Source: Asterias amurensis (lineage: Eukaryota; Echinodermata; Asteroidea; Forcipulatida; Asteriidae). From it: 64,000 bases of DNA. Where the stretch lies: contig NC_092665.1 in NCBI RefSeq assembly GCF_032118995.1, positions 6,009,501 to 6,073,500 of the forward strand, given 5' to 3'. Shown one piece after another: positions 1 through 20,115 of the stretch. The notes beneath the pieces are model-generated. The model made no database searches and was not told the DNA's origin. It saw only the letters and a list, made by a program, of their open reading frames with translations. Position numbers and translations under genes: made by a program. Each line of letters begins with the position of its first letter. Positions within the stretch are counted from its first letter, which is position 1.

Positions 1-39
1 CATACCATTAAAGCGTGTACAAATTGATCTCCGTTGGTA

Positions 40-400
40 ACATACAGCCTCATCCAAACCAGTGATAGAGTAAGTCACTGCTTTCAATCAGTGACTTTAC
101 CACATACACAATGTAGTGTAGAGTTTTACACCATTGGTATCCATTCAACATACAGCCTCATCCAAACCAGTGATAGAGTAAGTCACTGCTTTCAATCAGT
201 GACTTTAAACACATACATGTAGTGTAGAGTTTTACACCATTGGTATCCATTCAACATACAGTATCATTCAAACCAATGGTAGAGTAAGTCACTGCCATAA
301 ATCAGTGACTTTAACACGGTATTGATCCACAATTGTAACATACAGCCTCGTCCAAACCAATGGTAGAGTTAGTCACTGCTTTCAGTCAGTGACTTTTACA
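40..400. promoter_or_regulatory. Upstream hairpin array of C1q gene copy 1
   Basis: Four perfect 8-bp inverted repeats (AGTCACTG, 8-base spacer, CAGTGACT) lie at 73-96, 181-204, 287-310 and 371-394. They are spaced about 85-110 bases apart inside a degenerate tandem repeat that also carries CCATTGGT and CCAAACCA motifs. The array ends about 90 bases before the TATA-like box, so a role as a transcription-factor binding array is plausible. That function is inferred only from position and symmetry. Confidence 0.6.
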
Positions 401-480
401 CGTATCTATGATTGGCTGCTCATCGATTGTCAATCAAATATCAAAGTAGACTGATGAGCTCTTCAATGAAAATACAGCAG

Positions 481-581
481 TATTTAAACGCGCTGCACCA
501 GCAGCAGTGCTCATAACAACTTTGCATCTTATCGGAAGAGAGAAACTGAGAAAGTTTGTACTACAATAACACAACATCAAG
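481..581 (+). promoter_or_regulatory. C1q copy 1 core promoter and non-coding exon 1
   Basis: A TATA-like box, TATTTAAA, lies at 481-488. It is followed by a purine-rich leader that ends in a strong splice donor, CAAG|GTAAGTG, at 581/582. Transcription probably starts near 510. The leader has no useful ATG and would splice to the acceptor TTACAG just before the C1q start codon at 3356, giving a first intron of about 2.8 kb. The same box, leader and donor recur in copies 2 and 3. The start site is inferred. Confidence 0.65.
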
Positions 582-713
582 GTAAGTGTTTCTCGTTATA
601 CTGTCGGACCCGGACTTTGGCTTCTAGATGCATGCGGTGTATTTTAGGGTAGCCTATTATTTCAAGAAGATTGCAGTTTTGGTCAAAGAAGGGGCACCAC
701 TCTACCCAATAAA

Positions 714-893
714 GCAGTAACATTTACGGTGCTTTACCTGGCAGCTGGTGCCAGGTAAAATGCAGTAAATTTCACAGTAGCATTTTTGTAAATTGTGCCT
801 TGAGGGGGTAGTTTGCTAAACTTCACTTTGAAATTTACTGCACTTTTAATACCTAGCACCCTGGCTGCCAGGTATACAAAGCACCGTAATTTT
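714..893. repeat. Foldback element in C1q intron 1, copy 1
   Basis: Imperfect inverted arms of about 60 bases (714-776 and 833-893) share TTACGGTGCTTT, ACCTGGCAGC and TGCAGTAAATTTC. This is the structure of a small foldback or miniature inverted-repeat transposon. It recurs in copies 2 and 3, so it predates the duplication. Confidence 0.6.
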
Positions 894-1539
894 GACGGAT
901 TATTTTTAACAGCGTATTCAGCTGAAGTTCTCATGTAGTGTTTGTGTCACTTGCTCTCTGCCAACATTAGTGTACTGTGGTACTGTTTGGTGGTACAGAC
1001 TGTAATGCCGTTGCATTTCCCGTTTTGGAGCAGCAAGTTCCGCTGGTATTCTGTACATTGTCTTGTTCAAATAGTGGGCAATAAAAGTTTACCTAGACAG
1101 TTTCAGTTGAATGTGCATGATATTCTGCTCGTTTTAATGTGTGTGTACTCTTCATTCAAAAGCTGTCAACAAAAAAAACAACAAGTACTGATGAAATGGC
1201 ATTGTGTGACATGAACACTTTGTTATTTTGTTTTACAAAAACAAAACAAGATTGAACATAATGCAACACTTTCACAATTATTATGGTGATCGGTGTTTTG
1301 TACAGCCGACGTGGGGAAGGGCAACCGAGGTGAAGCCGAGTTTGGCTGTTTTCCCCAAAAGTTTACCCAAAACCTGGACCCCGTCACGGCGGAGCATGCA
1401 ACATTAATTGTTTTATTTTACCATGATATCGATTCCTCTTGTTTGGGGACAAATTGTTACGATCCTCCATTATTGATACGACAATAGTGACACAGTTTAA
1501 AACTATGACAGCATATTTTGTAAGCCAAAACATGGTGGC

Positions 1540-2700
1540 ACACTGTTTAAGGTGTTGTCACTTGACGTTTTAGCCATCGTATGTCAACGTATGAAAATTT
1601 TAGCGAGTACGCTGGCGTACGTCGATTAATTATGGGTGAAGGCCCCGTCACACCTTGACGTTTAAGCCAGCGTATAGCGACGTATGACAATGTTGGCGAC
1701 TACCCTGGTGTACGTCAAATAAGTTATGGATAACTTTGTATAAGTTAAGAGCACGATGAAACACGCTGATATACACGTCGATGTAAGTCGTGTGGCTCAT
1801 GAAGGCCCTGTCACACCTTGACGTTTTAGTCAGCGTATGCCGACGTTTGCAAATTTCTCTAAAACGTTGGCATACGCTGAACTATCGATGGATTTTTCAA
1901 TTTTGAGTGTATACGAAGCGTATTCATAAGGAGGTGGACGGATGCATACCGTAGAAGTAACTTACACAGAGCGTTTTCATAACGAATGCTTAGCGTGTTG
2001 ACGGCGTTAACAACTTATGTTCTACGATGGTCCAACTATTGCATAGAGCGCGGGGGCAGCGTTTTGCCGACGATCACATACAGTAGCCTATAAAGAGGGT
2101 GCCTCTCAACGATTGAAATAATAACTGCACTTGACATCGTATTAATCCTCATGCGAATCCAAATTGTATATACCGATTCACATAACTCTGCCAATACACC
2201 ATTACATGGTAGCTGTAAGTTTAGAAACAAGTTTAGTAACTAGTTATGTGGTCATCCGGAACACGTCAAATACGTTCGACGTAAGTTACTAATACGGTCT
2301 GCATACGTCCAACTCGTTATCAATAGGCTTTGTATACGCTCAAACTTGAAAATTCCATCAAAAGTTCAGCGGATGCCAACGTTTAAGAGAAATTGTCATA
2401 CGTCGGCATACGCTGACTAAAACGTCAAGGTGTGAAAGGGCCGTAAGTTAAGATCACGCCTAAATACGCCGACAAACGTCTTTGTATTATGCTTTGGACC
2501 TATGTCGAAATTATTTGACGTGTTCCGCACTACCACTTTTGATGAAATTAAGTAATGGCAGCGTTTTTGGGAAATCGGTATACACAAATTGGGTTCAGAG
2601 GAGAATATAGTGATGCCAAGTGCAGTTATTATTTCAAACGTCGAGGTACCATGCAATACGCTGCCGCGCTATGCAGTAGTTAGACTATTCGTAGATATCG
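1540..2700. mobile_element. Collapsed long-palindrome DNA element in C1q intron 1, copy 1
   Basis: Ends of the form GGCCCTGTCACACCTTGACG occur at 1641 and 1804 pointing right, and in reverse complement ending at 2442. Inside, GCGTATGCCGACGTATG-type stretches are mirrored on both sides of a centre near 2240. A further partial unit follows at 2443-2700. No protein is encoded. This looks like a foldback or non-autonomous terminal-inverted-repeat transposon whose centre has been deleted compared with copy 2. Confidence 0.6.
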
Positions 2701-3355
2701 TATCTTTTTACACGAGGAGAAATCCTCACAATGTAGACAAGTTGAGGAATCATTCTTGGATTATAAAATGAGCGAAGTGATACGGACAGTAGCTCAATGT
2801 ATAGGGTGTTGGTCTTATCTCAAACAATCACTGTGTTGCACAATCTCTTGTTGATATAGAGGCATACGCGCCCCACCCTGTATCTTCCCTGTAATTTTGT
2901 AAAAACTGTCAAGTCGAATCCGAGATCCAAAGCCGTCTATATGGAGATCATTACTCTGGGTTGTATTGTCTAACAATGTCTCGGTGAAGGATACCAGAGT
3001 CTCTGTGTTTACGCATGTGATTAAACGAGCTCATCCATTTTGGGGCATAGGGAACGGCAATGGACAATACCATTGTTGGGAGAAAGTTTCTACCGGTCTG
3101 ATTAAACTTCTTTCTCCTCACCACCCATATTTCCCCTGTATCTACTTTTAAAGTTGTTTATAGTTGTCTGACAGTTGTTTGGGTGTCATTGGGGAGCATT
3201 TCAAAACGATATTCAGTACGTTGAAGCGATTATTTAGCTCAACACAACATAACACTTACGATCAATACGGCCAGGTACATAATTCAACACACACATGCTA
3301 GAGAAGCGCCTTCTATGTTTTTATCGTTTGTTTTATTTATTCTATTAAATTACAG

Positions 3356-4366
3356 ATGAAGATTACCATATCAACAGTGACCTTTCTTCTTTGTATTTTG
3401 CAAGTTCCGTTCATGGTGGCTAAAACAGCAGTTTCACCTGATCCGGAGATGACGTGTAACTCCTGCTGCCAGGGCCCAGCCGGTATACCGGGAATCCCTG
3501 GATCTAATGGGCACCATGGTCAAGGGCTTGTAGGCCCGAGAGGTGATGCAGGCTCTCCTGGTGAGGTAGGTCAACCCGGGGCTAAAGGAGACATGGGGTC
3601 AGATGGACTAGTTGGTGAGCCAGGCGCTAAAGGGGATATTGGACTTACGGGAGATCAAGGAGTCGGTCAACCAGGGAAACAAGGACCTCAAGGTCTGCCT
3701 GGGATGAATGGTTTGAATGGGGAGAGAGGTGAACCTGGACCAGCTGGACAGACTGGTGAAGCAGGTGAGCCCGGGGGAAAGGGAGACATCGGGTCAGATG
3801 GACTGGTTGGTGAGCCAGGCGCTAAAGGGGATCATGGACTGAAGGGAGAGCAAGGAGTCGGTCAACAGGGCAGAACAGGACCTCGAGGTCTGCCTGGGAT
3901 GAATGGTCTGAAGGGGGAGAGAGGTGAACTTGGACCAGCTGGACAGACTGGTGAAGCAGGTGAATGTAGTACGCGACGGTCCGCCTTCACTGCAGTGAGG
4001 ATTACCCCCTTCAGGCCTCGACCCGACTGGTATCCTCTGCCCTTTGAAGAGTTATTGTTTTCAGAGGAAGGGATTGATTTTAACTTGAATAACGGCACGT
4101 TTACGTGTAATGTGCCTGGGGTATACGTATTGATGTTCTCACTCTATAAACCATTAGGTGGGCCTTTCCTATATGTCCATCTGAGGAAGAACGGTAACAC
4201 CATTGTTGCAGGGGGTGTAAGCGATGAAGATTACCATCAAGTGAGCAGCAGTGCAGTGATTCCCCTGCACTATGGAGATCAAGTTCACTTAGCTGTACGC
4301 GGTCACGTACATAGTTACTCTAGCCATTACACGTCTTTCAATGGATTCCTGCTGTACGAAATCTAA
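3356..4366 (+). CDS. Secreted collagen-like C1q-domain protein, copy 1 (336 aa)
   Basis: Probable soluble pattern-recognition protein of the C1q family. Residues 1-22 are a signal peptide (MKITISTVTF start, hydrophobic core). A Cys cluster, CNSCC, at about 34-38 could link chains. A Gly-X-Y collagen region follows to about residue 203 with a few interruptions (GVGQ) and a nearly exact internal duplication of 65 residues (195 bp). The last 133 residues are a C1q globular domain with the expected FTAVR start, GVYVLMFS, LRKNG, GDQVHL and FLLYEI end. The start codon directly follows a splice acceptor (TTACAG), so collagen and C1q regions lie on one exon. Family members trimerise through the C1q domain and bind microbial or self ligands through apical loops; a role in humoral immunity is inferred. 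An AATAAA lies at 4417. Confidence 0.9.
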   Translation: MKITISTVTFLLCILQVPFMVAKTAVSPDPEMTCNSCCQGPAGIPGIPGSNGHHGQGLVGPRGDAGSPGEVGQPGAKGDMGSDGLVGEPGAKGDIGLTGDQGVGQPGKQGPQGLPGMNGLNGERGEPGPAGQTGEAGEPGGKGDIGSDGLVGEPGAKGDHGLKGEQGVGQQGRTGPRGLPGMNGLKGERGELGPAGQTGEAGECSTRRSAFTAVRITPFRPRPDWYPLPFEELLFSEEGIDFNLNNGTFTCNVPGVYVLMFSLYKPLGGPFLYVHLRKNGNTIVAGGVSDEDYHQVSSSAVIPLHYGDQVHLAVRGHVHSYSSHYTSFNGFLLYEI

Positions 4367-4383
4367 ATCAAACATAAAAACAC

Positions 4384-4975
4384 ACAGAAACGTTTTAATG
4401 TTTTAGACAACGATTTAAATAAACTAATATGCAACTATATAGTTTTTACAAATATAATAATAATGAGTTAATCGTGGAAAATCGAACGTGTGTTTAGATG
4501 AATCGAATAAAATTACTTTATTATTAATTGTTTTATTATTTGCAGGACAATAAGTATGGAAAAGACGTTTTATTTGAACACTTGATTTTGCAAACGTGTA
4601 TTGTGACAAAAACTTTCAACGTGTTTTTGTCACGTAAACAGTGCTATAAATATCAGTTCATCCCTTTTTTTGAGTTTATTACATTTACGTTTAAATGTTT
4701 TAGACAACGATTTAAATACACTAATATGCAACTATATAGTTTTTACAAATATAATAATAATGAGTTAATCGTGGAAAATCGAACGTGGATTTAGATGAAT
4801 CGAATAAAATTACTTTATTATTAATTGTTTTATTATTTGCAGGACAATAAGTATGGAAAAGACGTTTTATTGAACACTTGATTTTGCAAACGTGTATTGT
4901 GACAACAACTTTCAACGTGTTTTTGTGACGTAAACAGTGCTATAAATATCAGTTCATCCCTTTTTTGAGTTTATT
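4384..4975 (+). repeat. C1q 3' UTR and duplicated 0.29-kb downstream segment, copy 1
   Basis: A stretch starting ACGTTTTAATGTTTTAGACA and ending before the GAGTTTATTRCATTT motif is present twice in tandem (about 4384-4685 and 4686-4975). It carries AATAAA signals at 4417 and 4506, so the C1q messenger probably ends here. Several short frames in this segment are only by-products of the repeat. Confidence 0.65.
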
Positions 4976-6227
4976 GCATTTTCTGTAAAGTTTGAAATTT
5001 CTGCAGCCTGTAATTCCGTCCGAGGGTGCAATGATGAGTCCTTGAAACCATGATGAGTCCATAAAATGCAAAATGAAACTACGCAAGAAAAACTGACAGT
5101 TTATTAAACAGTACATACAAAACTTCAGATTCCTTGATACAGACTCAGACTTATAATTCATTGTGGCCTCCGATTGTGCCGGCAATTTTATTTCAAACAT
5201 TTTAAATTGGTTGAAAAAGCTGTACCCTGTTAAGGCAACAAAATACAAATAATTCACCTAACAACTGGTAACGGTTGTCTTCTGTTGATATATTCGTTAA
5301 TGTACAAGACTTATGATATTGAACTAACGACAACTTGTGATAAAAAACAAATTGCGTTGTAAAGTTACCAGAAAACATTTATTTTGTGTCGCTTTTTGAA
5401 CACGTTTCGATATGGAGAAATATTTAATTTTTCGTCGTAGTTTGAGCGTTTCTTTGTTTTCACATGAGAAAGCACTTTTGTTTAATGCAGATGGAACATT
5501 GGGTATTCGTTTTGAATCACTTTCGTATAAAACGTTTGATGATGTCACGACTAACATGTCAAAGAGGGGAAACTATATTACACTTACAGCGATTCATTAA
5601 ACCGTCACATCGGCATGAAACCAATACACCATCTTAGTGTGAATTTGGAAAATAAAAATGTCCTCACTTCGACCGTGACTTAATTATTCGGAATATTAGC
5701 TGATTACACAATGTCGCATTTTACCTTACACAGAAAGGTTTCGTTGACAGTAATATTGTGACCCACTCTGTGATTTTTGTTAGAACTATATTTGCATGGT
5801 ATAGCCTGTTGGGGGTAAAAAATATTCTTATAAAATAGCACTATATGTAAGCTTTAATATGATGCATAATGTTAACATTTTTCCAAGAAGTAAACCAGAC
5901 ATTTTAATAAATAACCTGAGCACATGCAAATTTATTAAAAATGGGGTCGAGTTTAAAGGGTTAAAGTCATCTGGAAATATAATTTATTTTTCTTCAAACA
6001 TTAGAGTATATGTTAATGAACAATAACATAATTTGTTGAGTTATTGTTTGTAACGATTTACATGTTTAAAAAATAGATAAAGTTGTTTGGGGTGACTCCG
6101 CCTACTCCTTTTGTGACGTCAATCGAGGCAGACTTTGCCTCGATCGTACATTGAACACACGTACGTGCAATTACATGCAAGTTCTAGTTTTTACGTTTCG
6201 AAAAAAAGTTTATTTCTTGCATTTTGT
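4976..6227. other. Gene-free AT-rich stretch, copy 1
   Basis: No conserved reading frame, RNA gene or clear repeat was recognised. A small perfect hairpin, CGAGGCA-GACT-TTGCCTCG, lies near 6126-6144. The stretch is collinear with 30841-32083 in copy 2. Confidence 0.5.
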
Positions 6228-6383
6228 CGGCAAAATAACTAAAAATGGGGTCAGTTTGCAAAGTGGTTCGGTCCGACGTCTTTTCCAGCGCTGTGCAGCA
6301 AACACTTTGAGCCGTCCTGCTTCAAACATCGCGCCTCGATTGACGTCACGAACAGCGCCCTCTCGGGTCGGGCCTACTTTTAA
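6228..6383 (+). pseudogene. THAP zinc-finger domain remnant, copy 1
   Basis: One frame encodes TKNGVSLQ, the typical middle of a THAP domain. A second frame, ending with TAA at 6381-6383, encodes ALCSKHFEPSCF, the typical second zinc-binding half (C-x2-H). The two halves are joined by an internal deletion that removes the Trp-containing centre and changes the frame. The first 34 bases of the domain seen in copy 2 are also missing here. It may come from a host THAP gene or a P-element-like transposon; it is not functional. Confidence 0.65.
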
Positions 6384-8156
6384 ATTTGTTAATTATGGAA
6401 ACTAAATTTGTAGAACCTTAGTTAAATGTTTATTCGTATTCTACTCATCAAACACACATATTTTAGTGAGTGACAAAAGCTTTATTTTGACAAAATACCA
6501 CTTCCAGGTGACTTTAAACACACTGGTATTTTAGCAATAACGCTCTGAAAACAACAGTTTTGTGATCAAATTTTAGTCTTATTTGTATCCTTTTGCGCGA
6601 AAACATCACTTTACTTGTAATTCGTTTTTAACAAAAATGTATACACTGACTTATTTCAAACGGGAGTAACTTAGCAACGCGATACACCCAAAGCTTGGAC
6701 ATTAAACCAAATAACTGCTGCTGGTGTGTTCTTTCTAGCCCCTGCATTTGAATCAAATCTTCAAATTGTCAACATCTGATTCATTTCACAATTAAACAAT
6801 TATTACGTTAAAGGTCGTCAAAAACACAGTGTTAATGTTTGCATTAACGCTAGAATACAAAGCATTAGTATATAACTAGATACTTGTATTTCTACAAAGC
6901 ATGTTTTTGTTAAATTTAACTATAATCCAATTAGTGTACTAGACGTTAAGATATATTGCATAGTTTTAGAAATAGTCAGGTGTCACTTGAATGTTTTAAA
7001 TACATTGAAAGAATGAACATTAACGCCGTATCAATTGATTGTTTTGGTTTTTGTGTTTTGCGTATTTAGTTAATATTGAACTAAAATGATTGGTAAATAC
7101 AATTTGCAAGATGAACTAAATTTCCTCACACTGTTTTACTCATTTTTGCCAAAACCTACAACACCTCAGCAAATAAAATTTAAGGGAAACTTTTTACCGT
7201 TTTACCTTCAAACAGTGCAAGTTTACCGTAAATCAGTGAACATTGATTTTGCGTCCTTCTACAAAAAGTACACAAACCCTAAAACTTGTCAGTGGGAAGG
7301 ATGAACAGGGAATGGGTTTAAATAACGTAGGAATGGGTGGCCCAAGCATTTTGGCCGGGATTGTAGCCCCCGTTGTCGGAGGAACAAAACTCGGCTTATT
7401 TGACTGGCGACAGAACATGTTGTTTTCTGTTTGCTTCCGAAAAACTGCAAACAAACGAAGTGACCTGGCCCCTCCTGTCTTCCCCAGACTGGTATGGGCC
7501 GCGGTTAACGAATAGCCGGAGTGCTATGAATTTTTCCTCGGAGTATCTGATATCAATACGGTCTAACGCAGAAGGAATCAAAAGAGGGTGCTTTCAGAAT
7601 TAAGAAACGACCATGGTCACCGCTCACTGTAAAAGGATGAAACTATCTCCAAGGGACAGAAATCTCATGCCACTACAAGGGCCACGCGCAATTCTCCAGG
7701 ACTAGGCGCCCGGATTGGTTGCCGGTGTCTCAGTGAAATCAGTGCTGCCGGAGATTCTTTCCCCTGTTTGAGACACAAACATGGGCTGAGTGAGGGTGAT
7801 TTAACAGAGGGCGCTACCACAAGTAGTTTGTAACAAGTTTGCCGTATAAGGGGGAGGGAATTTTGGGAGAACATAATCTCCTGACACACCTGCCTATAAT
7901 GGGGAAAGAATCTCCGGGGACAGATTTCCATTAAAAACACGGGCCCAAGGCGGAATCCTGCCTTACGTGTTAAACAATCAAAATGACTCCAATCTCATCC
8001 AAAAGTTGTAAATAGTAAATACATTTTGTTCGCAATGTGTTCATTTAATTTGTTTTGCTCCATTGAATATTCTTGTTTCCCAAAAGCATTTGTGCGGAAG
8101 TAGACTCTGAGAAAACAAAAAATACAATTGAAAATCAGTTTAAAACTACCCTTTAA
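6384..8156. other. Gene-free stretch, copy 1
   Basis: No gene recognised. The part at 7290-7970 is less AT-rich and contains overlapping short frames on both strands that are preserved in copy 2 only because the copies are young; none shows a domain or start-and-splice signals. Confidence 0.45.
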
Positions 8157-8496
8157 GGGCAAAGGCAGGACACATTAGGAAACTTTCAAGCGCTAGTCAC
8201 GTCTTTCCACTTGGTGTATCTCAACATAATCTTAAATTAACAAACCCGTGAACATTAATTTGAGCTCAATTGTCCGTCGAAGTTGCGAGAGAATAATGGG
8301 AAGACACCCCTTGTCGCACAAGTTGTGTGCTTTCAGATGCCTTGAATTTGAGACCTCAACAATTCCAGAAAGTACTTCTTCTCAAAAACTAGTTTTCTTC
8401 AGAGAGAGCCGTTACTCACAATGTTTTATACTATTAACATCTCTCCATTGCTCATTACCAAGTAAGATGTTTATGCTTACAATTATTTGTTGAATT
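8157..8496. mobile_element. TTAA miniature element, divergent subfamily, copy 1
   Basis: Flanked on the left by TTAA (8153-8156) and containing the family core (CACTTGGTGTATCTCAAC, GAGCTCAATTG, GTTGCGAGA, GTTGTGTGCTTTCAGATGC, CTCATTACCAAGTAAG). The right terminal repeat is worn away. Non-autonomous, no protein. Confidence 0.65.
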
Positions 8497-8499
8497 TTA

Positions 8500-10589
8500 A
8501 AAGGTATTAGAAAATGCTTCAAAACAACAGAATTTAGCCATTAACTTAAGGTTTGGTGTAACGTACCCCAGAAAAGGTGTCTTCAAATTAAAATCATCAG
8601 TTTGTTGAAAAAAAATTGTTAAAGCTTGACTTGAGTAGTATAGTAAAACGTTCGTGTTAAAAGCAATACACAACTGGCCTTATGTTGCTTTATGTGCTTG
8701 CAAATTAGTCTGTTCTGACAAAATACATTAAAATTGACAATGTATTATTTTTTTCTGACCTTGTTTGAGGTAACAATTTAATTTAAAATTTAATAAATGT
8801 ATGTTCAATGATAAAAAGCGAAACTGCCGTTGGAGTTTTGAGCCAAGGGGGCAATGATGTGTCATAGAAACAATTAGGTGAATATTTTTGCTCGAATAAG
8901 ATGAAAATGTTATGTTTATTTAAACAAAACTAAACTTCGGTGTGCTAGTGTAGTCAACACATTCACTTTGCTTACCAATCGGGCACTTCGAGCCGGATGG
9001 TGGCGCATTACTTCTTCCTTTTAATTTGTTTAAGTTTACAGATTTTAGTGATTGGTAACTGTAAATGTAATCATTCGATAAATATGTTATGGGGATTGAT
9101 AAAAAGTGATCAGACAGAAACAAAATCACACTACAATTGCACGCACGTTAATCTTTGGCAGCGTCTAGCGGCCGTGGCATGACGCGGCCAACAAAAACAT
9201 TCGGACGCGGCTGTGACTTCGTGTGCGCGCCCTCAAGCGGTGAAATGAGTGTTTGCATACGTCGTACATGTGTTGTTTCGTCTGCTAATGCAAACAAACA
9301 ACATGCACGATTGGACTGAGTGATGTGAACGGCGTGAATTTTGAAGTTGGGGGGGGGAGGGGCTCAATATTTCTCTATTTCTACCTCTCAAGTAGAATTT
9401 TAGTTTAAATCTATTTGTTGAAGTATAGTGTCATGTTTTATTTAGGGATTTCAACATTAAAAAGTGAACAATTAACACATTTCTTTTATAAACACCAAAA
9501 TAAAACAACCTTTTTAAAATAAAATTATTTTGGTTGAACCAACCATGCCCAACTGGTGTGTAATGATAATCAAGCACTGTTATACTAGATGCTTTCTGAG
9601 TCCTGCAGGAAAGAATTCACAGGCTTACTACTCGGGTGAGTTTAACCCAAGACCTCCCGCATAATTATTAAAGCAGATCTACACCAGATGTCAAGAGACC
9701 AGTTCGATAATAATGTTTATTGACAATGGGTACAGCAAACAATTTAAAATAAATGTAATCCTACCTCAGTAATTACTTAGCCTGTGGATTTCCCCCCCCC
9801 CTGCAGAAATAAGAAACCCCTGACAGTGCTTTCATCAGTGTTCTAATATTCTTGCAAAACCTAGTATTACATCTATTTTAATTAAACAATATTGTAGGTC
9901 CAATGGGTGGGTGGGGCGATTGGGTGGGAATTGATGTGGATTACTGTGGAGCACACCCCTGTCCCAGACTACCAATAATCACACAATCAACAATTAATTA
10001 AGACACAGGAGATAAGTTTAACTTTTGAGACGTGAGGTATATTTTCACCAGCTCTGCCTTTTATAGACCAACATAATACAAGTTTATAGAGCATTGCCCA
10101 TAGTTTAACCAATTAGGAGATAACAGTGCGATGACACGCTCTTCACTGCGCATAATGACCGGGTTGGTGGCTGGTGCTGTTAACGGTCTTCGCACTGTTA
10201 TTTCCATTAGTAAATACCTTTTTAACGAAATAAACAGCTTAAGTGTCAATACGTCACGCTATGCATACGATCAGTCAGTTCAAAAATTACATTGAAAACT
10301 TCGCGTGTGCAAAACCAAAAACAAAAACATTTCACCTAACCTTATTGACTTAAATTCGTTATCACAATCGCGAGAGTGCAATACAGAAAAATATAGTGCA
10401 TCTGCGTCCCATCAGCCTGGTTGGATATGGAACGCATATAAGGAAGTGCTATATTTATCTGTATTCTACTCACGCTTTTTTGATAACTTGAAACTATCAT
10501 CCGTTAATACATCCCCTTGTGATCAGATTTTGACCAATCAGTACCTGGAAACTGTCCCAGGTATTTATTAATCAAACTAAAAGGCCAAC
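8500..10589. other. Gene-free stretch with half of a GC-rich foldback, copy 1
   Basis: No gene recognised. At 9153-9212 lies the right half of the GC-rich CATTCGGACGCGGC foldback that is complete in copy 2 at 35101-35207. G-rich (9350-9360) and C-rich (9791-9800) runs are present. Confidence 0.45.
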
Positions 10590-10593
10590 TTAA

Positions 10594-11058
10594 AGACACT
10601 GGACACCATTGGTAATTGGTGTATTTCAACATTTGATAAAATAACAAATCTGTGAAAATTTGAGCTTAATTGGTCTTCGAAGTTGCGAGATAACTATGAA
10701 AGAAAAAACACCCTTGTCACACAAAATTGTGTGCTTTCAGACGCTTGATTTTGAGACCTCAAAATCTAGTTCTAAGGTCTCGAAATCACATTCGTGAAAA
10801 AGTTACATCTTTCTCAAAAACTGAGAGAGCTGTTTTTCACAATGTTTTATACTATCACTAGCCTTGCTCAAGGCAGTCGCATCATTCACTCCGAAAAAGA
10901 CGCCGTTGTAAACCCACCCGTATACACTGTGCGTGGTGCGTTTAATCACACCACACGACCCACCCGTATACAGTATCACCCTCTCCTCATTACTCGTTAC
11001 CAAGTAAGGTTTTATGCTAATAATTATTTTGAGCAATAACCAATAGTGTCCACTGCCT
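10594..11058. mobile_element. TTAA miniature element with internal insert, copy 1
   Basis: Exact TTAA on both sides (10590-10593, 11059-11062). The terminal repeats are AAGACACTGGACACCATTGG and, inverted, CCAATAGTGTCCACTGCCTT. About 115 extra bases at 10858-10975 interrupt the core and contain CACCCGTATACA twice. TTAA targets are typical of piggyBac and Kolobok transposons; which one drives this family is not resolved here. Confidence 0.75.
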
Positions 11059-11104
11059 TTAAAGCCGGTTTATAGTCGTTGGAAATGTTGACATCGGAAA
11101 TGTT

Positions 11105-11182
11105 GACGCATGATTCTAAAAAACACGGTTTATAGACATCATCACTATGGCATATAAACTGTGTTTTTACAATCGCTGCGTC
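11105..11182. repeat. Short hairpin, copy 1
   Basis: Arms of about 30 bases (GACGCATGATT...GGTTTATA and its imperfect inverse ending GCTGCGTC) around an 18-base loop. The size resembles a small-RNA precursor, but a miniature element origin is equally likely. Confidence 0.45.
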
Positions 11183-13441
11183 AAGATATTCATTGGGCGA
11201 CCATCGCAAAACCGACTTCAAGGCCCTCATAACAATTCCTTTGCATCATTTTAGAGAGATTAGTAAAACAATGTCACAAAATTTATTAGCATGTACAACT
11301 AGTTTGTTACTCTGTGTGAAACTGTGCCCTAGTCATAGCTGGTTTCTGAGTAGTCGAAAACCTGACTTACAGTAGAACTTAAGAATGAACTTTCCAAATT
11401 CTGTATCTGAAGACGTAAGGACGCATCTAACCCATCCTAGGACGAGTAAGAGATAGCATAATCGTACTGCTTTGTGAAATCGGCTACTGGAGTTGTTCTG
11501 CTCCATCCATCATCATGTCATATAATACAGATGCTTATTTTTTTTTTTGGGTGGCTGTTCCTCCTGGTCTTACCATAAAGATCTTACCGGTCATCCTCGT
11601 ACTCCTCCAAACACCAAAGATGACAGTACACCGGGCATGGAGAGGTCATGTCTTCATAAAAGGGCCATGATATAGGCCTACGGCTGCACGTTTCATCTTC
11701 CATCCTTCCCTAGTTGAGGGGTGTTTTAATTCCTGAAGTTAAAGTATGAAAGTAATTTTCAGTTACCACCATGACAATTGTGTTTTATTTTTACCATAGC
11801 AAATATTACCAGTGAAACTGGAAAGCCCAACCTGCCCTTCAATCTCAGCTCACCCATGGGAGGTAAAAATAGACCTACATAGCTCACCCATCATGACCCA
11901 GTCCCATGGTCCTACAGTTAACTAAAATATTCCAAGAGTAAGACCACTAACCACAAGCCTCCCCCACCAAAAAATAAAAATAAAATCGTTATGTCACGAC
12001 TGTCTGTTCGTGATTCCAATAAACAGATGACAGGAATCCCAGGATGATGATAATTTCGTACAAAACGAAACGAGCAACGCTAGGGTAGGTTTGGGTTGTG
12101 AGTTATTGTCAAATACAAAAAAAAACATAAACAAAAACATTAAATTAAATGCAGGATAAAAACACACCCGAAATAGCAATACAACACAAAAAGTGTGACA
12201 TAATTATCACAGGTCGTCTTTTTCTTTATCTAAACATCACTTACACTTGAAGGTTTCACCTGTAGCAGCTTTAGCAGAAGTATGTAGTCACAGTTTCTAG
12301 TCCCATCGTAAATAATGTAGCACTAGCACGTAGCAGCAGACGACACACCGTCCCGGCCACAAGCAAGTCACCTCCGCTTGTGGCTTGAAATCTGTGACGT
12401 CGCGGCCGCAGCCACGGCCGCAGCCAAAAGAAAAAAACATTCGGACACGACTTCAAAATGGCGCGCACTGCCAGCGGCCGCAGCCGCAGCCGAAGTCGAA
12501 ACATTCGGACACGGCCTTACACGGTCTATTGGAGGGAAATGGTTGATCAGCCTGGGGAGCCCCATGTGACCTTGACGTCATATTTGAAATAATATTTACA
12601 AACTGGGGGGGGGGGGGGTCGAACACACACACTAAGCCCACAATAACATCCGAGTATTATACAAAACGCCCTCTGTTGGTCTAACAATTTTGCAGTCTTA
12701 GTTTTAACCATGGCTTTTATCTCCTCTAATATTCGGAAAGGCGAGTGTCAAAGGTTTCCGATGATACTATAATGTGCGTAGGGGGTACCGAACGACAAAA
12801 CTGCGAGGAATACAAATCAGCGATACTTCGCGCTATGTAGAAATAAAAGGGGCACAAATGAAACAAAAGTACGTTTACTTAACAAAATCATGTTTTTTTT
12901 TATAGCTTCATGACTAAAATTAAGTTATCTGAATATTGACAATGAAAATATAGATCCTAAAGAAGTAGAACAAAAAACATTGTTACAAAATTAAAACCTC
13001 TCCACAACGACCCCTTCCACATAATGTAACCGTCCATTGCACGCTAATGCATTGCGCGAAATTTTACTCATTTTCACAGAGCGGGTCACTGGTCTCTGGC
13101 TACTACGGCGAACAAGTATATGGACCAGGCAAGGAAACACCAGGGCTACGTTAATATAAAGATCACAGGTTCAAATGTCAAAGTAATTTGTTTTTGTGAT
13201 TTGTTTTCATCAAACACTAAACTAAAATGTATCCAGTCAGTTTCTCATTTAGGCCTGGCGTTTTTTTTTTTTTGGTTTTTTTTAACTGTATGATTCAAAA
13301 GTCGGTCTGATTTTTAAAAGCGGTTGTAAAAAAAAGTTAAAAGATGTTATGTTTTGGGTTGTTTGTTTTACTGTTTGCAAACACTATAATCTTGGCTGTC
13401 TTTGCTACAAGTGGACAAAACACATTCATTGAATTTCTTTT
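11183..13441. other. Gene-free stretch, copy 1
   Basis: No gene recognised between the hairpin and the last phosphatase exon. A GC-rich repeat at 12400-12516 yields Ala-rich short frames on both strands that are artefacts of GGCCGC repeats. A G-run lies at 12606-12618 and a T-run at 13260. Confidence 0.45.
12400..12516. repeat. GC-rich GGCCGCAGCC repeat, copy 1
   Basis: Two blocks of GGCCGCAGCC each followed by AACATTCGGACACG; the right end is the same terminus as in the 35101-35207 foldback. Probably a degenerate member of that element family. Confidence 0.5.
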
Positions 13442-13689
13442 TCAATATATAAACTTCCGTACGAAAGAAAACAACAGTAAAGCCAAAATGGAATTTGGTC
13501 CAGTAGAGGGCGCCCCATTGTGGCAGTTTAACCCGGAAGCATATCTGACAACGTGGGCAATGTAGTGCTGTTCATGTACCCCGTGAGAAAGATGCGACAT
13601 TGGTCCATTGGCGTAAATAGTGACGTCTTCTCCACTATGAGTCTCTGCATTAATTGGGACAAGCGCTGGATGGTGAAAATCGGCAGCCT
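13442..13689 (-). CDS. Alkaline phosphatase copy 1, exon 10 (GPI-signal C-terminus)
   Basis: Encodes EAADFHHPALVPINAETHSG, where THSGEDV carries the last zinc-ligand His, then GVHEQHYIAHVVRYASG and a hydrophobic tail SILALLLFSF that looks like a GPI-attachment signal, then stop. Acceptor TTTGTGCAG. Copies of the family usually have THGGEDV; copy 2 keeps that form. Confidence 0.85.
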
Positions 13690-13955
13690 CTGCACAAACA
13701 AATAATAAAACAATGTTTATCACAATACAAGTAAAATAATTGTTTACACAAGTTAATGATTAACTCTATGAATGGCAAAGGGGCACTTTCCCTTGGTAAA
13801 ATCGTGTTTGCAAAAACTTCCCTGTAACTTTGCCAAGTTATATGTTTAAGATTAAATATATTTCAAAAAGTTTGCATATACTCGGATTTAATTTTACTGA
13901 GTGGTGTACCTGAGTGGTATAAACCAATACTCAAAGTAATCAATTGAAGCTTTAT

Positions 13956-14078
13956 CTGTGTTGGTATCCGTCAGATTCCGTCTCGAACCAGTACTTTTGA
14001 AGCTGTTTAACTCCTCAATTCCTCCAGGGCCGTTTGCATATGAGAGTGTTGTAAATGGCAAACCGTCATTCATCAGAC
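13956..14078 (-). CDS. Alkaline phosphatase copy 1, exon 9 (donor lost)
   Basis: Encodes GLMNDGLPFTTLSYANGPGG then SRRNLTDTNT. The phase-1 donor is CACAG|GTAAAG in copy 2 but CACAG|ATAAAG here, so normal splicing to exon 10 is not expected. The frame runs on through the intron to a stop at 13894. Confidence 0.8.
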
Positions 14079-14425
14079 CTTGACATTTATGCAAAACCAT
14101 TTTGTTGTAATTAGAATTTAAATATGAATGGTTTGACGATGAATCACCATTCACTTATAGAAAACTGAGAAGCTTGCACAACTTGTTAACATTACTTACT
14201 GGTCAGAATTCAGTCTGCATTCGGGTAACTTAACGGAGGTTACTTTTTGTTTCCAAACATAATCAAGCTGCTGTCTACAAACAATTGGATTTTTTTGAGA
14301 GATATCTCCCTTTGAAAAAGGGGAAGTAAATAAATAATAATAGTTAGAAACAGTCTCTCTTTAAATTCATCGTATACTATTTTGCATACAAATGATATTT
14401 GGAAAGATATAGCTTTTAATTGTTC

Positions 14426-15551
14426 AAAGACACTAGCACTATTGGTAATTGTCACAGACAATAAAATATCAAACGTCGAAGTTGCGAGATAATAATGAAA
14501 GAAAAAACGCCTTTGTCACACGAAGTTGTGTGCTTTTAGATGCTTGATTTCGATACATCAAACTCTAAGTCTCAGGTCTCGAAATCAAATTCGTGAAAAA
14601 TTACTTCTCGAAAACTACGTTACTTCAGAGGGAGCCGTTTCTCACAATGTTTTACACTATCAACAGCTCTCCATTACTCGTTAGCAAGTAAGGTTTTATG
14701 CTAATAATTATTTTGAGTAATTACCAATAACAATAACATAACATAACAATTAATATTTTTAAGGCTCTATTCCATCAAGATCATAGCGCACTAGAAAGAA
14801 ATTAACTTGGAAAAAGGTGAGTCTTCAGGACTTTACGAAAAGCAGACAGAGTATTAGATTCCCTAATGGCAGTTGGGAGATTGTTCCAAATCATGGGCCC
14901 AGCCACACTGAAAGCCTTCTGACCTAAAACTTTGTTTGCTCGGGGAACATTCAAGCGAGTGATGTCAAGTGTGGACCGAAGAAATCGTGGAGGAGTGTAA
15001 TGTGACAGTTAAGTGGTGATAATGAGGTGTAGTTTTGTTAAAGCATAAAAACGAGAAGAGCAATCTTAAAATGGATTCGTTCTCTAATTGGTAGCCAATG
15101 AAGTTCCCTAAGTGATGAGGTAATAATATGTTCTCTCAAGGGTGTGGAACTTATTAAACGACCTGCACTATTTTGTAGTCTTTGAACTCTGTCCAATTCA
15201 TATGACGTTGCACCAAATAAAAGGAGATTGCCATAGTCAATACGAGAGAGGACTAAAGCTCTGACAACATGATTGAGAGTATCCTTATCCAGGTAGCGTT
15301 TGATTCTCCTTAAGTTACGTAATTGAAAATGTATTGATTGGCAGAGGCTAGAAACTTGCTTGCTCATTGTCATATGCGAATCAAATTTTATTCCTAAGTT
15401 GCTGACAGAATCAGTAGGGTCAATCGATGTATCACCCATATGCAAAGATATATTCGGCAGTTTCTTAAGGTTTTGGGGAGTACCAAGCACAATGAACTCA
15501 GTTTTATTTTCATTGAGCTTAAGCTTGTTAGAAGTCATAGTGTCCACTGCC
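14426..15551. mobile_element. TTAA miniature element interrupted by a LINE fragment, copy 1
   Basis: The family core runs from about 14426 to 14729, is split at AATTACCAATA, and its last bases (ATAGTGTCCACTGCCTT) resume at 15537, before TTAA at 15552. The inserted piece is the LINE fragment listed separately. It sits in a phosphatase intron. Confidence 0.75.
14730..15536 (-). mobile_element. 5'-truncated CR1/L2-type LINE fragment, copy 1
   Basis: The - strand encodes the end of a reverse transcriptase: NKLKLNENKTEFIVLGTP, SNLGIKFDSHMTM, VLSRIDYGNLLLFG and LRELHWLPIRERI. Past the frame at 15038, traces of the typical AFSVAGPMIWNNLP tail are visible in another frame. The 3' end is an ACATAAC-type simple repeat. 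The catalytic half is missing, so this is a dead insertion made before the duplication. Confidence 0.8.
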
Positions 15552-15581
15552 TTTAAAGTTATATTTGTGGATGAAACTTAC

Positions 15582-15782
15582 CTCCTCTGCCGAGTATTGG
15601 ACTACCACGAACAGCTGCTCCTCCTATAGAGAGTACATTGCTATGGTCGGCAGTTACAATAAATAAAGTCTCCATTTCATTGGTCAGTGACATCGCCTTG
15701 GCTACAGCCTTATCCAGTGCAATGGTATCATGCAGGGCGTGGTAGGCTAACCCGTCATGATGCGCATGGTCAATTCGGCCAC
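15582..15782 (-). CDS. Alkaline phosphatase copy 1, exon 8 (RIDHAHH, ADH)
   Basis: Encodes GGRIDHAHHDGLAYHALHD then MSLTNEMETLFIVTADHS and GSPILGRG; the Asp and His residues of RIDHAHH and TADH are zinc ligands. Acceptor ACGAAG and donor GGAG|GTAAGT are intact here, unlike in copy 2. Confidence 0.9.
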
Positions 15783-15859
15783 CTTCGTGTTTCAAATCAA
15801 GATAGTATGATATAAATTATTTGTATTTGAATTATTGAAATTTGATGAAAAATCTGGTA

Positions 15860-15948
15860 ATAATAATAATAATAATACAGAACATTTATAGGGCGCTATA
15901 CAAAGAACAGAGCGCCTAACATTAACAAAGGGAGGGCAACATAAGGTA
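15860..15948 (-). mobile_element. Copy 1-specific TTA-tailed retro-insertion
   Basis: Present in copy 1 only. Flanking GGTA (15856-15859 and 15945-15948) is single in copy 2 (at about 41835), giving a 4-base target duplication. The insert has an (ATA)n run followed by TACAGAACATTTATAGGGCG, that is, a TTA-repeat 3' tail on the - strand, like the LINE at 49777-53033. Probably a heavily truncated LINE end or SINE. Confidence 0.65.
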
Positions 15949-15977
15949 GTGTGTCTTGTTCGTGAAGAATGTTAACG

Positions 15978-16418
15978 CTTTCACCATCTTGGTCATGTTC
16001 CCTATTTCCATAAAGTAATGAATGCTAACATTCATTGTGCAAACATGGCACCAGCCTCAGTTTGGTTACAATGGAGTATAAAGTCAAGATGGCCACACCG
16101 TGATGAAGGGCTATAATCACGATGTCACCATCTCGGTCATGTTCCCTGTTTCTATAACAGTAATGAATGCTAACATTCAATGCGCAAACATGGCACCAGC
16201 CTCAGTTTGGTTACAATGGGGTATAAAGTCAAGATGGCCACACCGTGATAAAGGGCTAAATCACGCTATCACCATCTTTGTCATGTTCCCTGTTTCTATA
16301 AAAGTAATGAAAGCTAACATTCATTGCGCAAACATGGCACCAGACTGATATTTCGTCCAGCCTCAGTTTTGTTACAATGAGTTTGAATGAAAACCAAGAT
16401 GGCCACACCGTGATAAAG
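15978..16418. repeat. About 117-bp minisatellite in phosphatase intron, copy 1
   Basis: Three to four tandem units, each with GTCATGTTCCCTGTTTC, AATGAATGCTAACATTCATT (itself a palindrome), CAAACATGGCACCAG and AAGATGGCCACACCGTGA. Confidence 0.8.
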
Positions 16419-16832
16419 CAACATCATAGACGGAGTTTTTGTCAACCACGATTTTAAAACTAGGAAAATACATGAATACAAAGATAACAAACGTTGGCCC
16501 TAGTTTTTAAGAATGTTCGTTTGCAACCAATTGGGATGTATTCTTTTTAATTACAAGTTTGCAGCAATGTCTACTTTGGTGAAAAAATCTAGTAGGTCGG
16601 TTGATGTTTTGCTATTATTCGGTCGTCCATGCCAACCATGCGTGGTTTACTTTTCAACAATGAAAATACATACAATCTGTGACTGAACAATGGCATCAAA
16701 GAGACAATGCAAATACTCCATATAACGAGGTTTCAGATTGTCAATGATTTTCTAAGCCTCAAAAGTAAGAGGTAGGGCCAATAACGATAACCTCTTGTGA
16801 AACAGCAGCAATGACACAATAGGCTCATGTAG

Positions 16833-17010
16833 TCTTGTCCAAGGTCTTTTACGCAAGCACCGGCTCGCTACCATGAATTCAAGAACTGCATAGTTACTAT
16901 ACTGCACGGTATATAACAGTACTTAATACCGTGGGGTCGAAGCATGGTTTTTCGAGGTTGTCGTACCTCATACAACGAGGCTGCAACTAGACTCGATATC
17001 AAGTACTTGG
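16833..17010. repeat. Remnant of a long palindrome, copy 1
   Basis: Holds the left arm (CTTGTCCAAGGTCTTTTACG to AGTACTTAATACCG) and loop of the palindrome complete in copy 2 at 42724-42978; nearly all of the right arm has been lost. Confidence 0.6.
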
Positions 17011-17087
17011 ACATTGCTAGGGCTCATGAAACCAATTAACCAACACTCTACAAAAACCAGAAACCTGTATGTTGCAAAATAGCTTAC

Positions 17088-17228
17088 CCTCAACCATAAG
17101 GAAGAACCCTTCTTTGTCCTTCTGAAGTATCTCAATGGTCTTTTCTACCATCTCAGACAATGAGGGCTCACCCCCTACGTCATTCATTCGGTTACCTTCA
17201 AATTGCATATGACTGGGCTCAAACAAAC
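17088..17228 (-). CDS. Alkaline phosphatase copy 1, exon 7
   Basis: Encodes [14 protein letters not shown] then [19 protein letters not shown] and [10 protein letters not shown]; the Glu of MVEG is the Mg ligand. Acceptor CTTTCAG and donor GAGG|GTAAGC. Confidence 0.9.
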
Positions 17229-17515
17229 CTGAAAGGTAAGCAAACTTATTATAACTGTCAAACAAAAGTTTCAATATTAAATCGTCCTGGCTATAGTTAT
17301 AAAGAATTACAAAGAATAAGTTCCATTCCTCGATAATAAAATGACGGCAATATATTTTGAGGACATAAATTTTCAAGAGATGTACCTACGTCATGAACTG
17401 TTTCTGGTTACCGACCCGTTTTCGCGTAGCTCTCTGAAATTTTTTCGGTCAGTGAATTTGACGTCAGCAATTTGTTTCTGGTCATGGTCGCTAAAACACG
17501 CTCCTGTTACAATTT

Positions 17516-17607
17516 TAGCTCACTTGGTCGTCGAACTTGCGAGATAATAATGAAAGAAAAAACACCCTTGTCACACGAAGTTGTGTGCTTTCAGATGCTT
17601 GAATTCT
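17516..17607. mobile_element. Fragment of TTAA miniature element, copy 1 intron
   Basis: Contains only the family middle (TTAGCTCACTTGGTCGTCG, CTTGTCACACGAAGTTGTG). Copy 2 has different sequence at this place. Confidence 0.6.
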
Positions 17608-17823
17608 GGATCAACGGCACCTAGCCTAAAGCCCAAGCCAAATAAGTGACACAACCTTCGATACCAAAATGAAACTCTCTTCTAAGCCAACATCCTAGAC
17701 CTATTTACATGAGCATTTAGCCCAAGATTTATGCGGCGCATAAAGGTTGTAGGCACAATCATGTTCCGAACGACAGACGATTGTTCGTACTTGTTCAAAT
17801 TGGTACATAAAACAACAACTCAC

Positions 17824-17922
17824 CTAAAAGGTTGTCAGTTTCAAGTGGATTGACGTCTTTAAATTGTTCCAAATTCCACACGTACTTGCTGTTTGTCTTG
17901 TCTTTACTTGCTTGCCATTCGT
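17824..17922 (-). CDS. Alkaline phosphatase copy 1, exon 6
   Basis: Encodes DEWQASKDKTNSKYVWN then LEQFKDVNPLETDNLLG, matching the family W-x(n)-YVWN and LLGLF region. Acceptor TTTAAG and donor TTAG|GTGAGT. Confidence 0.8.
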   Translation of the reverse strand, partial: TNGKQVKTRQTASTCGIWNNLKTSIHLKLTTF

Positions 17923-18180
17923 CTTAAACAAAACATAATATTGTAAAACAACTAGTGAAACAAATCCTTGCTTGATTGTTTCAATTCGTAGTATATAGCA
18001 AGAGCTTCATGTGACCGAAAGAAAATTAAATGCTGTGGAACTATAACAAACATCTATAAAGTCAAGGTTTGATCAAGTAAAACTATTTTGATGAGAGATA
18101 CTTCTACAAGAACACAACATTTTAAAAGAACATAAACAGACAAGAATAATTATAAGATGAATAGATTCATTACCATTAAA

Positions 18181-18556
18181 GACACTGGACTATATTGGTA
18201 ATTGTCAAAGACCAGTCTTCTCACTTGGTGTATATCAACATTATGCATAAAATAACAAACCTATGAAAATTTGAGCTCATTTGGTCGGCGAAGTTGCGAG
18301 ATAATAATGACAGGAAAAAACTCCCTTGTCACACGAAATTGTGCGATTTCAGATGCTTAATTTGGGGCCTTCAAAATCTAAATATGAGGTCTCGAAATCA
18401 AATTCGTGGAAAACTACTTCTTTCTAGAAAACTACGTAACTTCAGAGGGAGCCGTTTCTCACAATGTTGTATACTATCAACCTCTCCCCATTACTCGTTA
18501 CCAAGTAAGGTATGCTAATAATTAATTTGAGTAATAACCAATAGTGTCCACTGCAT
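18181..18556. mobile_element. TTAA miniature element present only in copy 1
   Basis: Left flank TTAA at 18177-18180; right flank ATAA, one base off. Terminal repeats AGACACTGGACTATATTGG and inverted CCAATAGTGTCCACTGC. Copy 2 has the uninterrupted site CCATTAAATAAGTTC at about 44471, so the element either jumped into copy 1 or left copy 2 precisely. Confidence 0.8.
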
Positions 18557-18592
18557 ATAAATAAGTTCGTCTGGATTGTTGATGATCATGAA

Positions 18593-18753
18593 AAAAAAGA
18601 TTCGTTTTTACAAATCCAAAAATATGTACGATGTTACTAAACATATAATTGACAAAGCTCCTAGCTTAGGATTAAAACGTAACTACTCGTACTAAATGAT
18701 ATGTAAAGTATACATCATACTTAATTTTGGATTTGTAAAAACGAATCTTTTAT
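18593..18753. repeat. Foldback repeat in phosphatase intron, copy 1
   Basis: Arms of about 40 bases: AAGATTCGTTTTTACAAATC and its inverse GATTTGTAAAAACGAATCTT. No coding capacity. Confidence 0.65.
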
Positions 18754-18857
18754 TTCAGATTCATTACCACTTTATATTCAAGTACATTCCTCCTATCTTC
18801 TATGACTACGCACCATGCTGTCTCTATGGTAATGTCAGCGTCTTGCGGCTCATGGAC

Positions 18858-19140
18858 AGTTATCGATTCACCATTATCGACTTACCAATATTGATTTACC
18901 ATTGTCGTTTCAATATTATCTTTTCCCATTATCGATTCTCCATTACTGATTCACAGTTATCTTTTTACGACTATCGGTTCACCATTATTGATCCACAAAT
19001 ATTATCGAATCACCATTATCGATTCACCAACATCGAATAGTGGTTATTGATTTACAAATATCGACTCACCAATATCGACTAATAATTATCGATCAACCAA
19101 TTTTGATTCACCATTATCAATTCAGCATTATTGATTTCAG
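18858..19140. repeat. TTATCGATTCACCA minisatellite, copy 1
   Basis: About twenty degenerate units of roughly 14 bases based on TTATCGATTCACCA. The frame through it (18696-19222) encodes a meaningless Ile/Tyr/Phe-rich string produced by the repeat. Confidence 0.8.
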
Positions 19141-19242
19141 TAGCTCGGTTTCTATGGAATCTGGATGGGATCAGAAGCTGTTAAAGCAAAATGGTGCAAT
19201 AGTCATCAATAATTGGGTTTAAGTTTGGTCAGGTTTACATAC

Positions 19243-19354
19243 CGATGAGATTTCGTCCATCATTTCTAGATCCAGCTTTAGAAGAGTCTTCAGGATACTC
19301 TGGGTCGGCAGCTTCTCTCGGTAACATTTTCATCCTTCCCCCACCCATTATAAC
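19243..19354 (-). CDS. Alkaline phosphatase copy 1, exon 5
   Basis: Encodes VIMGGGRMKMLPREAADPEY then PEDSSKAGSRNDGRNLIG; VIMGGGR is a family signature. Acceptor ATGCCAG and donor ATCG|GTATGT. Confidence 0.85.
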
Positions 19355-19925: not shown

Positions 19926-20115
19926 CTTTAGAAAGCACACAAAGCAACGAAAACCTAATTTATTAGCTATTATATTCGATCGATACAATTTCAAGAACAC
20001 AAGATTAAAATTAATACAAAACACTTGACAACAAATCAATGAAAGTAAATCATACTTATTATACACACATTGACTGGCAATGAGGTAATTGTACGTCTAC
20101 CCCCGAGGGACTTTG

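Follow-up and report, generated by a model that had tools for sequence, protein, structure and literature searches.

Why should the globular heads of two neighbouring genes differ at many codons that change the residue and at very few that do not? The question is raised by a stretch of 64,000 nucleotides of contig C18 of the sea star Asterias amurensis (C18:6009501-6073500; "the window" below). It contains gene A (copy 1; 3356..4366, plus strand), which encodes a collagen-C1q protein of 336 aa in a single open frame, and its paralogue gene B (copy 2; 29239..30231, plus strand; 330 aa). The initial annotation of this DNA reported 35 replacement and 3 synonymous codons between the last 133 codons of the two genes; our recount from the translation and alignment is identical. 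The compared segment is the globular C1q head, located at 3965..4363 (plus strand, 133 codons) in gene A and at 29830..30228 (plus strand) in gene B.

The heads differ at 47 nucleotides, and the NG86 estimates over 133 codons (which ignore transition bias) are 0.152 for dN and 0.054 for dS; silent divergence in these segments is below replacement divergence, and equal values would have spoken against the original reading. In the remainder of both genes, comprising signal peptide and collagen (197 aligned codons), there are 16 replacement and 13 synonymous codons, and dN/dS is 0.38. Per site, the heads have diverged by 5.2% at silent and by 13.7% at replacement sites. The neighbouring noncoding DNA does differ by a few percent, as was noted before: 1.6% in the 3' flank (2464 aligned bp) and 5.9% in the 5' flank (952 bp). 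At replacement sites divergence is higher than in either flank (Fisher 2e-20 and 4e-5); at silent sites it does not differ from that of the 5' flank (Fisher p 1.0). Against strict neutrality the pair alone gives P(S<=4 of 47)=0.009 and P(S<=5)=0.027, i.e., a moderate departure; the family-wide data given below make the case much stronger.

The tandem array and its genes

A Pfam C1q (PF00386) profile search of the genome (assembly of 491,506,623 bases in 23 contigs) yields 116 matches, and 80 of them are found in one 2.6-Mb array at C18:4.69-7.30 Mb (76 lie on the plus strand, the other 4 on the minus strand; two of the 80 have an internal stop). Genes A and B are two members of this tandem array of about 80 genes. 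Further tandem C1q clusters are present at C9:22466257-22522904 (12 matches, plus strand) and C18:10702806-10755604 (5 matches, minus strand); the loci of these two clusters covered by the analysis are L004-L007. A gene from the latter cluster, L004, has the best score against the gene A head among L001-L008; it served as the outgroup and was also excluded from the counts.

The window includes a part of the tandem unit with gene A (1..24882; positions 1-206 match 62419-62624, and 1-189 match 24883-25068), the boundaries of which are fixed by the window start. It is followed by the next unit, delimited by self-match (24883..62418), which holds gene B as well as about 8.6 kb of inserted DNA, and by the start only of a third unit (62419..64000), whose C1q gene lies beyond the window; the next match is at C18:6102307. 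The unit period at the genes is about 26 kb, and the first two unit copies share blocks of about 89-98% identity. The stretch of about 8.6 kb (47306-55906), present in unit 2 and missing from unit 1, carries a LINE-type endonuclease/reverse-transcriptase frame (50262-52886, plus strand) and the minus-strand frames 47780-48349, 48340-49770 and 53026-54975, which have no Pfam match (the shortest has a Cys-rich C-terminus); its content is probably mobile elements. An alkaline-phosphatase fragment inside the unit (41562-41924, minus strand; profile positions 260-322 of 423) could be a pseudogene piece or an exon carried with the duplication.

In gene A, an acceptor-like TTACAG stands directly 5' of the ATG. 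The N-terminus is hydrophobic, and inspection of the translation by eye points to a probable signal peptide of about 22 residues (3356..3421, plus strand). The collagen Gly-X-Y stalk (3473..3964, plus strand; recognized in the translation, by Pfam and by self-match) contains a module of about 195 bp in two copies (3558-3768 vs 3753-3963, 89.7%). For gene B, the listed ORF 29164-30231 begins at a GTG upstream of 29239. The Pfam scores of gene A are 80.8 bits for Collagen and 62 bits for C1q, both above the cut-off; those of gene B are 78.7 and 71.9 bits, and the C1q cut-off of 23.7 bits is passed by both genes. The Pfam Collagen match places a Gly-X-Y segment N-terminal to the C1q head in each of them, and the only other family found in the two genes is a weak BclA_C match. 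A repeat of about 300 bp occurs as a tandem pair directly 3' of both genes (4390-4993 for A, 30255-30844 for B).

The genes obtained cover 78 of the 80 array matches. Forty were retrieved with their flanks and 37 more as heads alone, and gene B was taken from the window; the two matches left out are those with internal stops. Excluding L024 (a truncated head) leaves 77 open heads with 69 distinct protein sequences, and 63 heads are distinct at >3 nt. In the first half, 8 of 40 genes were dropped as being <=3 nt from an earlier gene, which leaves a distinct set of 32. Full-length genes make up 37 of the 41 in the first half including B (L021, L030 and L041 are without a recognizable in-frame start, and L024 is truncated); a Gly-X-Y stalk is visible by eye in those 37, the second-half genes having been fetched without stalks. 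The 32 distinct first-half genes fall into a short collagen class (19 genes, 137 codons before the head), another class of 10 genes with a different signal peptide and a stalk whose length changes mostly by multiples of about 65 codons, and 3 unplaced genes; the class comparisons below exclude L021, L030 and L041. Stalk length differs between paralogues, growing by the module of about 195 bp: L019, L011, L025 and L044 have 351, 416, 481 and 611 codons from stop to stop.

One may ask whether A and B are tandem paralogues at all, and not alleles that an assembly artefact or uncollapsed haplotypes have set side by side. Heterozygosity in marine invertebrates is comparable in size to the A/B divergence, and near-identical heads are indeed found hundreds of kb apart (L022/L034; L012/L042/L077; L026/L040/L043/L062); L022 and L034 are separated by 444 kb, and their flanks differ by 0-0.1%. 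Such distant copies suggest either that blocks of several genes were duplicated recently or that the assembly has duplicated them. As an account of A and B, we find an artefact highly improbable: a single window shows two units, with a third beginning, in register and with differing insertions, and even if every locus were counted twice, the 63 distinct heads would still require at least 32 loci. The assembly was built with HiFi, Hi-C and purge_dups (PMC10625585).

Selection and the variable face of the head

Testing the 35 A/B-different codons on A and B themselves would be circular; they were therefore measured in the 30 other distinct first-half genes, by pairwise counts over array paralogues. 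At these codons piN is 0.280 and piS is 0.133, with a ratio of 2.10 (bootstrap 1.42-3.37); in the same genes, piN/piS is 0.58 (0.35-0.98) at the remaining 98 codons and 1.15 (0.83-1.60) over the whole head. The ratio of replacement to silent alleles is 141:21 at the A/B-different codons vs 88:43 at the others (Fisher 6e-5), and 141:21 is above the neutral site ratio (P 0.005). The signal peptide and collagen part of the short-class genes has piN/piS of 0.50. The tandem paralogues of this array thus combine an excess of replacement changes at some sites of the head with purifying selection at the rest.

Hypervariable codons, defined by amino-acid entropy >=1 bit among the 32 distinct first-half heads, number 30 of 133; all 63 heads give 29 of 133, and 27 are common to both sets (in the full set codons 64 and 103 join, while 3, 95 and 117 are at or just below the 1-bit cut). 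When the first-half hypervariable codons are taken to 28 distinct second-half heads, piN/piS is 2.19 (1.51-3.53), vs 0.47 (0.32-0.70) at other codons. Three of the 31 distinct second-half heads lie within 12 nt of a first-half head and were excluded from this hold-out; the replicate is not fully independent, as training and held-out genes have a common history.

The four blocks proposed at the outset (4001-4033, 4142-4180, 4208-4258 and 4298-4342) hold most of the A/B replacement codons, with outliers at 3977 and 4073. The family-wide pattern, given here in gene A coordinates on the plus strand, is as follows. Codons 15, 17, 21 and 22 (4007..4030) are hypervariable in the AA' loop region; codon 3 (3971-3973) is barely over the cut, in the first half only. 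Head codons 26-59 (4040..4141) form a framework with an entropy of at most 0.65 bits per codon in the 63 distinct heads. Then come codons 61, 63, 66-68, 70, 72 and 74 (4145..4186), which include the strand C end, the CD loop and alternate residues of strand D; codons 79, 82, 84, 86, 87, 89, 90, 92 and 95 (4199..4249) in strand E, the EF loop and the strand F start; and codons 112, 114, 116-120 and 122 (4298..4330) at the strand G end and in the GH loop. Strand and loop letters are assigned by analogy with known C1q heads. An AlphaFold2 monomer model, with the two window heads as input, has a mean pLDDT of 55.7 (below 50 for residues 1-43) and places strands C, D, E, F, G and H at 52-62, 68-75, 78-85, 91-101, 106-114 and 124-132. 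Despite this modest confidence, Foldseek with the model recovers gC1q-type structures in the best 50 of 163 matches at E<=0.001; the strand positions C to H are used on this ground.

In strands D and E the entropy alternates, with means over 63 heads of 1.98 bits for even vs 0.17 for odd residues in D and 1.80 vs 0.52 in E; for strand G extended to residue 118 the values are 1.42 vs 0.25 bits. At the conserved positions in between, hydrophobic residues prevail (L69, V71, L73, V107, L109, V111, V115), and variable sites cluster at lag 2 over lag 1 (p 0.011). Considering this alternation with hydrophobic conserved residues, the variable residues most likely face away from the core. The variable positions continue into the AA', CD, EF and GH loops, and loop length differs in a few heads. 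Hence the expectation that the variable blocks correspond to exposed loops holds for the loops and is too narrow in confining variation to them, as strands D, E and G also vary in alternation with conserved residues. The opposite expectation, variable blocks in the buried core, does not agree with the strand alternation, from which burial was judged. Tyr and Trp account for 15.4% and 2.0% of residues at variable sites vs 2.9% and 0.0% elsewhere (32 heads); such a make-up is typical of binding sites. A pair of cysteines in the GH loop, at residues 117 and 122, is found in the gene B head and in no other of the 77; the two, five residues apart, might be joined by a disulphide.

The concentration of change in chosen codons also brings to mind a targeted mutator, driven by a deaminase or a reverse transcriptase and acting on certain head codons. 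It would fit the observation that positions 1 and 2 of the variable codons change most (0.39 each) vs position 3 (0.17), the third base being nearly constant in several columns. This is expected anyway with silent divergence below 10% and selection on positions 1 and 2, and no special mutator is needed to explain it. All four bases are found at positions 1 and 2, and AGC/AGT codons make up 64 of 145 serine codons at variable sites and 122 of 304 elsewhere, so that no clear deaminase-hotspot bias is apparent. Recent changes were collected from close pairs of heads: of 14 such pairs, 5 were removed so that no gene is counted twice, which left nine independent ones differing by 1-8 nt. In this small sample of 30 changes, 10 fall in variable codons; the neutral expectation is 22.6% (P 0.12), and the share is below the 64% of distant second-half pairs (P 0.0007). 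The N:S ratio of these changes, 22.5:7.5, is near the neutral expectation (7.0 silent of 30). Recent changes thus look neutral and are spread over the domain, which makes a targeted mutator unlikely; together with the four-base use and the serine codons, we regard it as extremely improbable. An adenine-directed diversity-generating retroelement was considered separately, and the same base use and the occurrence of recent changes outside the variable codons disagree with it. Selection is seen only over longer times, as very recent pairs show neutral N:S; new changes seem to arise anywhere in the domain, with selection sorting them later.

Linkage within the heads and probable exchange between paralogues

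Does selection suffice, or do the paralogues also exchange pieces of their heads? Beyond 80 bp, r2 in the 32 heads is 0.033 vs a null of 0.032, i.e., at the level of independence, with 0.034-0.036 for variable and 0.030-0.033 for framework codons; in 63 heads it is 0.018-0.019 vs 0.016. In the first 400 bp 3' of the stop codon (32 genes), r2 is 0.17-0.30 vs a null of 0.034. The contrast between head and flank persists when sites are matched for minor count (2 to 5); framework sites with commoner variants number only 7, too few to judge their linkage. In the 19 short-class genes, the region from the signal peptide through the collagen stalk has intermediate linkage (0.08-0.21 vs a null of 0.056).

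The backbones tell the same story. For clusters defined on the 3' flank, Fst is 0.78 in the flank and 0.016 (framework) and -0.027 (variable) in the heads; for the collagen classes it is 0.635 in the collagen part and weak in the heads, 0.071 (p 0.054) and 0.086 (p 0.006). The Spearman correlation of head distance is 0.10 with the 3' flank and 0.23 with the 5' flank, vs 0.35 between the two flanks. Local flank alignments were used, since aligning the 19 short-class genes over their whole flanks put unlike backbones together (mean p 0.17-0.25). Pairs with 3' flanks only 0.9% apart, such as L039/L045 and L047/L048, can have heads that are as unlike as those of other pairs.

It could be proposed that diversifying selection alone produces this pattern: point mutation diversifies the heads, and recurrent changes erase linkage with no gene exchange. 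Several observations agree with it. Replacement differences at variable codons average 17-20 per pair however far the 3' flanks have diverged, including flank divergences below 1.5% (5 pairs). In some close pairs silent changes are near the flank level, L039/L045 and L047/L048 having 26:1 and 29:1 replacement to silent codons. The silent count in the heads correlates with 3' flank divergence (0.46), which also argues against complete unlinking of head and flank. The PHI recombination test, with 0.757 against a mean of 0.767 under permutation, is not significant, since 349 of 1000 permutations reach a value at least as small; this is a result against recombination, although the test has little power when sites are already near equilibrium. 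Nevertheless, we consider selection alone unlikely. Framework sites, even rare count-matched ones, are nearly unlinked beyond 80 bp; framework distance is only slightly smaller between genes with similar flanks (10.7-12.6 nt below 2% flank distance vs 13.6-15.1 above); the 3' backbone does not sort heads; and L023 and L035 are identical until mid-head and different after it.

The converse proposal, that the A/B blocks came by exchange from diverged C1q paralogues and that selection is unnecessary, is very unlikely in our opinion. The A/B differences are indeed block-wise, and stretches are common to otherwise unlike genes (e.g., L028/L047, L038/B). Exchange carries silent and replacement differences alike, though, and cannot itself raise piN over piS at the variable codons (2.1-2.3); moreover, the sharing partners are array members with the same signature in their own variation. 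The initial annotation offered diversifying selection or block exchange as alternatives; each part is supported, the first by piN/piS of 2.1 and the second by heads close to linkage equilibrium, and it is the "or" that would have to be abandoned, as the evidence indicates that both act together.

Nor do the A/B blocks represent clean single donated tracts: silent divergence within the blocks is at the background level, and the PHI test is not significant. Tract detection, recommended earlier as a test for gene conversion, finds a few pairs beyond chance (8 of 496 at p<=0.001, with 0.5 expected; one pair over the global 95% score) and an overall weak signal; its null ignores rate variation along the domain, and the signal is dominated by the conserved middle stretch. 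The case for reassortment is carried by the linkage decay and the backbone test, and any particular tracts and donors are to be treated as candidates.

Proposed explanation and comparison with known systems

We believe that the array is probably a tandem collagen-C1q recognition repertoire shaped by diversifying selection on a patch of the head and by reassortment of heads between paralogues, with ordinary untargeted mutation. Judging by the family, the proteins would be secreted and would form trimers held together by their collagen stalks and by the conserved portion of the head. The patch seen in the sequence would be built from residues of strands D, E and G that face outward, together with the loops around them, and may bind diverse and changing ligands, most likely microbial surfaces. 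Copies would be supplied by duplication and changes by ordinary untargeted mutation; selection would keep amino-acid changes on the patch and remove them in the framework, while ectopic recombination or gene conversion between paralogues would move head pieces among different backbones. The array proteins presumably have an immune role.

It is tempting to go further and to propose an inherited antibody-like repertoire, with one scaffold, about 30 freely combining surface residues, individuals with different sets of recombined heads, and heterotrimers multiplying the specificities. We put this forward tentatively, as a possibility that is rather doubtful at present; if true, it would place such a repertoire in an animal without lymphocyte-type adaptive immunity. 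Independently of this extension, the array shows how an invertebrate may hold a large and fast-changing germline set of specificities through a fixed scaffold, a variable face and reassortment. The separate comparison of unit flanks vs heads lets selection, mutation targeting and recombination be distinguished; the variable codons predict ligand-binding residues; and differences in this array from one individual to another would be an obvious place to look for causes of unequal susceptibility to disease.

The sea urchin SpTransformer (185/333) proteins are unrelated, having no C1q or collagen domains. The variable lymphocyte receptors of lampreys have an LRR fold and somatic assembly, with variable residues on a beta-sheet face. 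SpTransformer is a large and highly variable immune gene family of an echinoderm (PMC11089230), and the Asterias array resembles it in these respects, its own immune role being presumed. With the lamprey receptors (PMC3900441) there is an analogy only: the Asterias proteins have the C1q fold, and the genes are intact in the assembly. Pfam finds no LRR in A or B, and membership among such receptors was rejected on these two points. Nor do we propose that the array encodes classical complement C1q, in which three dedicated chains (A, B and C) with C1r/C1s-binding collagen stalks start the C1r/C1s pathway; the array has 80 matches and at least two classes of collagen length.

In the literature searched, which covers few subscription papers, we found neither this array nor head reassortment in a family of this kind described; the term "C1q" is absent from the main text of both A. 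amurensis genome papers. The nearest precedent is the C1qDC clusters of bivalves, together with echinoderm C1q lectins such as OXYL. OXYL is a LacNAc-specific crinoid C1qDC lectin, a secreted head-only protein of 158 aa; the accessible part of the same source counts 59 C1qDC genes in the sea star Acanthaster planci and 6 in Apostichopus (PMC6409975). The domain and the phylum are the same, and the larger number in a sea star was thus noted earlier; OXYL differs from the stalked Asterias proteins in having the head only, and that part gives counts without an analysis of an array, selection or shuffling (PMC6409975).

For Crassostrea virginica, six tested clusters of 15-26 genes, analysed with BUSTED, FUBAR, SLAC, FEL and MEME, are reported to have 4-11 positively selected sites per cluster in a C1q domain otherwise under purifying selection (PMC6835236). 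The likeness includes tandem duplication, near-identical recent copies, selected sites and a proposed recognition role (PMC6835236). The term "gene conversion" is absent from the main text of that paper (PMC6835236). By comparison, Asterias has 80 matches in one interval and about 30 hypervariable codons, numbers of sites that are not strictly comparable between codon-model methods and our pairwise counts; the full-length Asterias genes read carry a collagen stalk, and their heads are near linkage equilibrium. A tandem C1qDC family under diversifying selection is already known; what is notable as new is the size of the array, the variable sheet face beside the variable loops, and heads near linkage equilibrium.
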